A stretch of 64,000 bases of DNA from Acidobacteriota bacterium (GTDB taxonomy: Bacteria > Acidobacteriota > Terriglobia > Acidiferrales > UBA7541), in contig JABCZR010000001.1 of the NCBI GenBank assembly GCA_013289585.1, positions 124,001 through 188,000 on the forward strand, written 5' to 3'. Below the pieces are notes generated by a model, which was given only the letters and a program-made list of their open reading frames with translations, was not told where the DNA came from and searched no databases. Positions 26,542-64,000 of the stretch are shown here, piece after piece (the stretch's first letter is position 1; the number at the start of each line of letters is the position of its first letter). The translations under genes were made by a program, and so were the position numbers.

Positions 26542-26940
26542 TTACCAGCGGTTGCCACGGTCGCCGCGATCTCCACCACGATCCCCGCCGCGTCCGCCGC
26601 CACCTCCGCCGCGTCCACCACCGCCACCACCATGGCCGCCGCGCCCGCCGCCGTATCCGCCACGTCCGCCGCCACCGCCGCCGCCGCGCTCTGCCTGGGG
26701 ACGCGCTTCATTCACAACGAGGTTTCGCCCGCCAAAATTCTGGCCGTTCAGGGAGTTGACGGCGCGGTCCGCGTCTTCGTCATTGGTAACTTCGACGAAG
26801 GCGAAACCGCGCGACTGCCCCGTGAAACGATCACGAATCAGATTGACGCCGGAGGGGGTGACACCGATCTGCGAAAACCACTCGTTGAGCTGATCTTCCG
26901 TCGCGGAAAACGGAAGATTACCGATATAGAGCTTCTTCAC
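26542..26940 (-). CDS. Glycine-rich RRM RNA-binding protein
   Basis: A 132-residue single-RRM protein: RNP2 LYIGNL at 4-9, RNP1 RGFAFVEV at 44-51, the remaining RRM to about residue 78, then a Gly/Arg/Asp-rich tail of about 50 residues built from GGGG, GGRGG and GDRG units. This matches the Rbp family of cyanobacteria and other bacteria, often cold-induced and active in RNA chaperoning. The tail is encoded by near-repetitive GC-rich triplets, which makes the opposite strand look like a proline-rich open frame. Monocistronic. Confidence 0.95.
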   Translation of the reverse strand: MKKLYIGNLPFSATEDQLNEWFSQIGVTPSGVNLIRDRFTGQSRGFAFVEVTNDEDADRAVNSLNGQNFGGRNLVVNEARPQAERGGGGGGGRGGYGGGRGGHGGGGGGRGGGGGGRGGDRGGDRGDRGNRW

Positions 26941-37036: not shown

Positions 37037-37884
37037 GCCGCCGAGAGCGCCGCATGCGCGGTCGAGAGGGGCTCGCGCAGGACGCGAGTGCCGGGAATAG
37101 AGGATAAGCCGTCCTTTGCAACGCTCGCTGCCGCGTGCGAGGCAAGCAGCAAAGCTTCCGGCGATGTTCCGCCGACAATGCGGACTTCGCGAATGCCGCC
37201 TTCGATGGCGCGCTTGGCGGCTTCGAGCTTCAGAATCATGCCACCGGAAACAATACGGCTCTGGACGAGGCGCTCGATTTCTTCGCATGTGATGGCCGCG
37301 AGAACCTTGTCCCCATCGAGCACGCCGGCAACATCGGTGAGATAAATCAGCTGATCTGCGCCGAGATATTCGGCACAGGCCGCGGCCATGTGGTCAGCAT
37401 TGATGTTATACAGCTCATTATCCGCGCCGATGCCGAGGCACGGGGCAACCGGCAGGAGCCCTTCGCGCCAGAGCGATTCGATAAACTGCGCGTTCAAGCC
37501 TGTGAGGTAGCCGACGAACCCGAGGCTACCTTCGACTTCGTTGTGCACCATGGGCTCGGCGACGAAACATTGAGCATCCGCGGCGGAGATACCGATGGCA
37601 GGCTGACCTTCGGCGGAGATGGCTGCGGCCAGTTTCTTGTTCAGCAAACCAGCGAAGACCATGACGGCCACGTCGCGAGTTTCGCGGTCGGTGACGCGCA
37701 GCCCGGCGACGAATTTGCTCTCGATAGCCATGCGCTTGAGGGTGGCAGTAAACAACCGGCCGCCGCCATGGACGACGAGAATTTCATGGCCTTCGCGCGC
37801 GAGCGCCGCGACCTGGCCCGCGAGCCCATGCATAAGCGCGTCGTCTTCGAGTAATGCACCTGCGAACTTGATTACGATTCTCAT
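37033..37884 (-). CDS. argB: N-acetylglutamate kinase
   Basis: Phosphorylates N-acetylglutamate, the usual control point of the pathway. The 283 residues start MRIVIKFAGALLEDDALM, with the nucleotide-binding LVVHGGGRLFTATLKRM, INADHMAAACAEYLGADQLIYLTDVAGVL and the C-terminal GGMILKLEAAKRAIEGG. The usual KxGG near the N-terminus is KFAG here. It lacks the N-terminal helix of arginine-inhibited ArgB, which argues against direct feedback inhibition. Overlaps argC by ATGA and argD by 4 bp. Confidence 0.95.
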   Translation of the reverse strand: MRIVIKFAGALLEDDALMHGLAGQVAALAREGHEILVVHGGGRLFTATLKRMAIESKFVAGLRVTDRETRDVAVMVFAGLLNKKLAAAISAEGQPAIGISAADAQCFVAEPMVHNEVEGSLGFVGYLTGLNAQFIESLWREGLLPVAPCLGIGADNELYNINADHMAAACAEYLGADQLIYLTDVAGVLDGDKVLAAITCEEIERLVQSRIVSGGMILKLEAAKRAIEGGIREVRIVGGTSPEALLLASHAAASVAKDGLSSIPGTRVLREPLSTAHAALSAA

Positions 37885-63302: not shown

Positions 63303-63377
63303 TGGTGCCGGCGGGGGGAATCGAACCCACGGCCTAGGGATTATGAGACCCTCGCTCTACCACTGAGCTACGCCGGC
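63303..63377 (-). tRNA. tRNA-Met (anticodon CAT), CCA encoded
   Basis: The acceptor arm GCCGGCG pairs with CGCCGGC, followed by discriminator A and genomic CCA (63303-63305). D arm GCTC/GAGC, anticodon loop CTCATAA with CAT at the centre, and T loop TTCGATT are all in place; the last anticodon-stem pair is T-T and one T-stem pair is mismatched. The 5' base is G and there is no initiator-type G-C triplet stack, so elongator Met is favoured; tRNA-Ile2 (lysidine-modified CAT) is not excluded. Confidence 0.9.
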
Positions 63378-63741: not shown

Positions 63742-63769
63742 TTGACATTGGTGTGCCAATCTATAGAAT
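63742..63769 (+). promoter_or_regulatory. Strong promoter with a palindrome in the spacer
   Basis: -35 TTGACA (63742-63747), 16-bp spacer, -10 TAGAAT (63764-63769). The spacer contains TTGG-TGTG-CCAA (63748-63759), a dyad that could be an operator. The gene start is 34 bp downstream with GGAGG ahead. Confidence 0.7.
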
Positions 63770-63802
63770 GCCCCCGGGGTATCGTCTTCCCTCGGAGGCA
63801 CA

Positions 63803-64000
63803 ATGTCACGCAGACTCACAGTACTCTTACTGGTCATGCTAGTTCTGGCCGGGGCAATGAGCCTAAAAACGGTAGTCGTCACGCATGGTGATGGCTCCGT
63901 AATCATGGCGAACGGTGGGGCTCCTCTACCGCCGAACCCATGGAAGAATGGTGGCGCTCCTCTACCGCCGAATCCTTGGAAGAATGGTGGCGCTCCCCTA
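63803..64000 (+). CDS. Secreted protein with tandem NGGAPLPPNPWK repeats (partial, right edge)
   Basis: ATG 63803 with GGAGG 4 nt ahead opens a signal peptide (RRLTVLLLVMLVLAGAMS) followed by a short spacer (TVVVTHGDGSVIMA) and then NGGAPLPPNPWK twice and NGGAPL at the window edge. 66 codons are visible; no stop is reached. The mature part is Pro/Gly/Trp rich with no other domain. Not recognised; it could be a small surface peptide, a cell-wall ligand or a repeat-containing bioactive precursor. It is driven by a good sigma-70-like promoter. Confidence 0.75.
   Translation, partial: MSRRLTVLLLVMLVLAGAMSLKTVVVTHGDGSVIMANGGAPLPPNPWKNGGAPLPPNPWKNGGAPL
63911..64000 (+). repeat. 36-bp in-frame tandem repeat
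   Basis: Two complete 36-bp units (63911-63946, 63947-63982) and half of a third (63983-64000). Units 1 and 2 differ at four positions, mostly silent or keeping NGGAPLPPNPWK, so selection acts on the peptide. It is not a CRISPR array: there are no spacers. Confidence 0.9.

Follow-up and report, generated by a model that had tools for sequence, protein, structure and literature searches.

A tandem-repeat precursor gene adjoining a seven-helix membrane protein gene in Acidobacteriota

A peptide gene lying beside the gene of a membrane receptor is an arrangement of a known kind. In systems of the Agr/ComD type, the peptide gene adjoins that of a multi-helix sensor kinase, in which the kinase domain is joined to the membrane sensor, and RRNPPA receptors are cytoplasmic helical-repeat proteins. 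Among fungi, Kex2-processed repeat proteins are secreted and cut into peptides. Tandemly duplicated Phr/RRNPPA propeptides of Bacillota are described as exported and encoded beside their receptor gene, sometimes with one to four identical or slightly different copies of the pheromone (PMC11343458). For fungal pairs such as the P-factor and Mam2 of S. pombe, a precursor of tandem pheromones, a seven-helix receptor and lineage-specific diversification have been described (PMC6342294).

The locus described here shares features with each of these. Among the bacterial systems compared, the tandem Phr/RRNPPA propeptide beside its cytoplasmic receptor comes nearest: here, too, a small propeptide gene, with predicted export of its product, adjoins a partner gene in all 35 loci with downstream sequence. 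However, Phr receptors are cytoplasmic and belong to a named family, whereas the partner here, judged by its model and charge pattern, spans the membrane with seven helices and has no convincing Pfam match, and none of 33 partner members carries an RRNPPA-type helical-repeat Pfam domain. In layout, the fungal repeat pheromone with its seven-helix receptor is nearest: it combines a tandem-copy precursor, a seven-helix partner and lineage-specific diversification. It differs in its eukaryotic G-protein signalling and in the placing of precursor and receptor in opposite mating types. A search of PDB chains with the partner profile returned no match at an E-value of 1 or below, so that no sequence relation was found. 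The Agr/ComD type shares the peptide gene adjoining a membrane receptor gene, but the partner of about 232 residues and the third protein found here have no kinase match. The Kex2-processed proteins share secreted repeats cut into peptides, but they are fungal and are not known to imply a seven-helix neighbour. What appears new is the pairing together with the three protein families, which did not turn up in searches of open-access papers without preprints; the same searches gave no comparable system in Acidobacteriota, an abundant soil phylum.

The precursor gene and its upstream region

The window, i.e. the whole stretch of 64,000 nucleotides that was analysed, ends inside an open reading frame on the + strand (63803..64000, the first 66 codons), whose stop codon ends at window-relative position 64021, 21 bases past the edge. 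The extended reading gives a complete precursor of 72 amino acids, consisting of MSRRLTVLLLVMLVLAGAMSLKTVVVTHGDGSVIMA and three exact copies of NGGAPLPPNPWK, the last of which runs to the stop. Residues 1-36 (63803..63910) comprise a hydrophobic leader and a spacer and were aligned in 30 members; they are followed by unit 1 (63911..63946), unit 2 (63947..63982) and unit 3, whose first half (63983..64000) lies in the window and whose end lies at 64018. Tandem Repeats Finder reported a 36-bp unit in 3.0 copies with a score of 174. The tandem repeat in a small protein, which the preliminary description had reported, is thus real, and the extension past the edge that it had proposed for counting repeats and viewing neighbours revealed the three units and, as the next gene, that of a seven-helix protein. 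It had also reckoned with a frame that stops early and relatives that lack the repeats; the frame does close soon, but in a search of 61 genomes 33 of the 36 genus genomes carried the gene at E ≤ 1e-6, 25 of them with two to four units and eight with one.

The units differ between species, with variants such as GGAPAPPVPWKN, GSAPVPPVPWKN, GSAPAPPTPYKA, GSSPAPITPYRN and GTAPPPAPWN and a rough common form across the genus of N-G-x-x-P-x-P-x-x-P-W/Y. Within one protein, the copies are equal or nearly so, G033 and G002 being the least regular. Pfam held no convincing family for the precursor. As a chance check, 4,245 reading frames of 45-130 amino acids from 570 kb (the window and 32 loci) were screened, a strong leader being defined by at least 10 hydrophobic residues among 14. 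All tandem-repeat frames with a strongly hydrophobic leader belonged to this family, bar one antisense reading of a member, and none of the 4,245 outside the family combined leader and repeats. A repetitive, glycine/arginine-rich short reading without a hydrophobic leader lies at window position 37286 on the - strand (antisense reading at 26552, +). The window's genome was also screened for a paralogue at another site, and this was rejected, the three other matches being weak (E 0.19-0.73).

Upstream, beyond a promoter of the sigma-70 type, the opposite strand carries a tRNA-Met gene (63303-63377). The promoter, TTGACA-16-TAGAAT (63742..63769, +), agrees with the consensus at 11 of 12 bases and is well kept across 26 aligned upstream regions. 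The preliminary description had paired a strong promoter with a palindrome in its spacer; the promoter holds, and the palindrome TTGGTGTGCCAA (63748..63759, +) is present but species-specific, since by eye the exact 12-mer occurs in the window's own sequence only and in none of the other 25 aligned regions. It was rejected as a conserved operator on this ground; a looser TTGSTGYRC pattern occurs in several of the 26. Between promoter and start codon lies a possible 5' leader hairpin (63771..63798, +; arms 63771-63779 and 63790-63798), in which 83.2% of the cells were paired in 26 sequences, as opposed to 37-59% when the arms were slid, and both-sided changes occurred in four of the nine pairs (six such cells). 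The Shine-Dalgarno sequence GGAGG (63794..63798, +), four bases before the ATG and invariant in the alignment, would lie in the 3' arm. This hairpin has moderate support from the aligned sequences and might tune the translation of the precursor.

Selection on the repeat units

Adjacent units of the window gene differ by seven synonymous and no nonsynonymous changes. When the units of each gene were compared over 55 repeat genes, drawn from the genus as well as from other families, pS was 0.554 (590.9 of 1066.0 synonymous sites) and pN 0.025 (73.1 of 2894.0 nonsynonymous sites), the latter being somewhat low because the period finder favours identical residues. This set omits L130 and L145 (non-ATG start), L132 (broken frame), L152, L153 and L157 (truncated or found only afterwards) and L142 (which lacks a peptide gene), and the period finder missed the two distant copies of L156.

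For comparison between species, 13 genus genes with three protein-identical 12-residue units were chosen, so that the within-gene pN is 0 by construction and the informative values are pS and those between species. Their synonymous difference was 0.669 within a gene, 0.593 at the same position between species and 0.708 at different positions, with a between-species pN of 0.118. Among 71 species pairs with different units, same-position pS was below both within-gene values in 33 and not in 38. When the order of units was shuffled within species for these 71 pairs, the same-position advantage was never matched in 2000 trials (p = 0.0005), a test that counts species as independent though some, such as G013 and G027, are close; the synonymous-codon mismatch was 0.549 at the same position, 0.628 at other positions and 0.576 within a gene.

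The high pS with low pN, together with these position-specific markers, indicates that the units hold partly separate synonymous histories and that a new residue comes to every copy. Low pS values were found in G132 (0.00), G043 (0.13), G299 (0.20), G280 (0.29) and G225 (0.30), and the nearly identical DNA units of the first three indicate that fresh duplication also occurs. Gene conversion as the source of unit identity is disfavoured by the pooled pS and pN and by the synonymous markers kept at their positions across differing peptides. Judged from the sequences, selection best explains why the units are identical, and the simplest reading would be that every copy must give the same product. 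The proposal that the peptide is under selection, which had been based on third-position changes between the units, is strongly supported by the substitutions between units and between species.

The three-gene cassette and its membrane partner

The next gene after the peptide gene encodes the seven-helix protein in each of the 35 loci, at a distance of 44-115 bp as called. A third gene for a membrane-anchored protein of about 133 amino acids was present in 30 of the 35 (E < 1e-5; 29 were aligned) and mostly begins at the stop of the seven-helix gene. In the window genome, both lie past the edge on the + strand, at window-relative positions 64093-64788 and 64788-65186. Precursor and seven-helix genes occur together in the same 33 of the 36 genus genomes and are both absent from the same three. 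A second module in G007 (L058, G007:C58) has a divergent one-unit peptide frame near 2650 and a partner frame, open from about 2891, whose product is homologous to the seven-helix protein (E 2.8e-14). L064 (G003:C2) and L065 (G001:C60) likewise hold second modules, divergent and with one unit but complete in their three genes, in genomes that carry the main module as well. Five further weak matches (L053, L054, L055, L059 and L060; E 0.0025-0.013) were dropped, the leader being absent in the reading and the partner absent in the fetched stretch.

Since the 35 loci had been found through the peptide, the reverse test started from 40 seven-helix loci of other genera and families, picked by hand for spread from the 106 genomes outside the genus in which the seven-helix search gave a match. 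In 39 of the 40, a short frame that is a candidate for the peptide gene lay upstream; by eye, 35 had two or more tandem units, whose sequence is lineage-specific, and four a single or unclear unit (L154, L155, L160, L162). Among the 39 candidates, L152 meets the end of its contig before a leader is reached, and in L132 leader and repeats lie in different frames. The remaining locus, L142 (G036:C24), has homologues of the second and third genes without an obvious peptide gene and is possibly an orphan partner. The distant units are wholly different, for example AHIAPPPDIWEL in five copies (L161), AAGPWPFPDDSAGGNI in three (L159), SHGPVAPPDGDGDGGNII in three (L158), DGTTTAPEMR-like units in three (L143) and SGTGLPIPGSGLR-like units in about seven (L157). 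Eleven further loci within the class gave repeats in three (L165, L170, L182), a single candidate in seven and none in L178. The seven-helix match recurs across many families; a phylum-wide search found matches in 17 of 396 genomes, the eight outside the class being weak, and an obvious peptide gene was present in none of nine weak loci fetched from outside the class. Several f6 loci carry a frame of 158-163 amino acids downstream of the seven-helix gene. Broken frames were observed in the peptide gene of L132 (G155) and in the seven-helix gene of L084 (G030), which is split over two frames; either assembly error or decay may be the cause.

The structural model of the partner consists of seven helices that fill it (pLDDT 85.4, pTM 0.81). 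Lysines and arginines together averaged 3.30 in loop 1, 1.76 in loop 3, 3.55 in loop 5 and 3.52 in the tail, as opposed to 0.00 at the N-terminus and 0.64, 1.00 and 1.15 in loops 2, 4 and 6. This pattern predicts an N-out/C-in topology, mainly through loops 1 and 5, though negative charge is also high in the tail (2.52) and in loop 3 (2.21), where it exceeds the positive charge. Given this topology, the conserved residues S61, Y64, Y66, Y68, D72, E133, Q136 and N137 would place polar positions in, or beside, the outward-facing half of helix 3 and of helix 5. The top structural matches were bundles of the GPCR type (Z as high as 14.8, with an rmsd of 4.3 across 207 residues), although unrelated helical models can give a Z of up to about 14; the best Foldseek E-value was a weak 0.044, and the PDB contains a disproportionate number of GPCRs. 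No GPCR Pfam model matched the partner at E up to 0.1, and the likeness of the models is a weak lead rather than proof.

Pfam, NCBIfam and PADLOC gave nothing convincing for the partner, the best being DUF6790 (4e-4) in one of 23 members, and no signalling domain or known relative was found in the searches. Ceramidase (0.039) and Per1 (0.089) each appeared in one of 23 members. These CREST seven-helix hydrolases have conserved metal-binding histidines, unlike the partner, which has no histidine among its invariant or near-invariant columns in 33 sequences. The third protein gave a model with pLDDT 82.5 and a best Foldseek E-value of 1.2, with no convincing Pfam family, and no kinase domain was matched in 33 partner members or 29 third-protein members. 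Among 21 genus members, unit distance tracked partner distance when third-protein distance was removed (partial r 0.31, permutation p 0.002), as opposed to 0.12 the other way round, relatedness being controlled in part.

A possible peptide signal and alternative readings

We see an even chance that the gene specifies a precursor with several copies of an exported peptide, and that the seven-helix protein senses this peptide. The precursor part of this reading, for which selection and anatomy of the gene argue, is well supported as a reading of the sequences. The multi-copy precursor suggested in the preliminary description likewise finds strong support in the substitutions between units and between species, whereas the cutting into peptides proposed with it belongs, like export, binding and a signalling role of a receptor, to what we infer. 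The hydrophobic leader would send the precursor through the inner membrane, where proteases outside the cytoplasm would free equivalent short proline-rich peptides from the tail, and a message with extra copies would yield more of them. The neighbouring seven-helix protein, oriented N-out/C-in with polar residues towards the outer face, would be the cognate partner and likeliest receptor, as suggested by linkage, topology and a weak covariation, and the small membrane-anchored third protein may relay or assist on the inner side. Against a signal speak the one-unit forms in eight of the 33 genus members, by which repetition is not required, the loci without a peptide gene, L142 (one of 40) and L178 (one of 11), and the partner's lack of a matched signalling domain. 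So does the frequent positive residue at the end of the leader in aligned members (LKT, LRR), which is not typical of signal peptides that are cleaved. A surface peptide, also suggested at the outset, is possible.

Alternatively, the leader may hold an uncut precursor in the membrane, with the proline-rich tail forming one complex with the seven-helix protein, as its multivalent subunit or regulator. The conserved gene pairing and the one-unit forms are compatible with such an anchored product, as is a conserved, partly charged region directly after the hydrophobic stretch. However, classic A-x-A sites end several distant leaders just before the repeats (e.g. L159 and L162, by eye), and anchoring offers no clear reason why all copies in a protein must agree although they vary from one species to the next, so that we consider this reading unlikely.

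Some bacteriocin-immunity pairs also consist of a small peptide gene followed by that of a multi-helix membrane protein, and the lineage-specific peptides would suit an antimicrobial whose dose is raised by the copies and whose sequence diversifies in an arms race, the seven-helix and third proteins conferring self-immunity. Presence in nearly the whole genus and recurrence in many families are, however, unlike the patchy distribution of bacteriocin genes, plasmid records held no match for the partner, and no conserved transporter or modifying-enzyme neighbour was noticed in the gene-order table. For the window genome, PADLOC matched none of the three cassette proteins to a family at an E-value of 0.01 or below, so that no known anti-phage defence model fits them; antagonism is thus quite improbable. 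That the units are alike merely through recent duplication or gene conversion, as a copy number of one to four in the genus and the five genes with few synonymous differences might suggest, is very improbable in view of the pooled substitution values and the position-specific markers.

Returning to the exported, sensed peptide, a bolder version would make the cassette a bacterial counterpart of fungal pheromones, with identical proline-rich peptides cut from the exported precursor, a kinase-less GPCR-like receptor that senses them on the cell surface, relay to the small anchored partner and, through joint diversification of ligand and receptor, lineage-specific private channels across one class of Acidobacteriota; we regard this as a tentative possibility. 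Even without signalling, it is unusual, and amenable to testing, that copies shift together in protein but retain distinct synonymous histories. If the signal reading is true, it would mean a peptide system with a kinase-less seven-helix partner, in which the way such a protein signals in bacteria could be put to the test, and it would provide dozens of natural ligand-partner pairs for studying the evolution of specificity.
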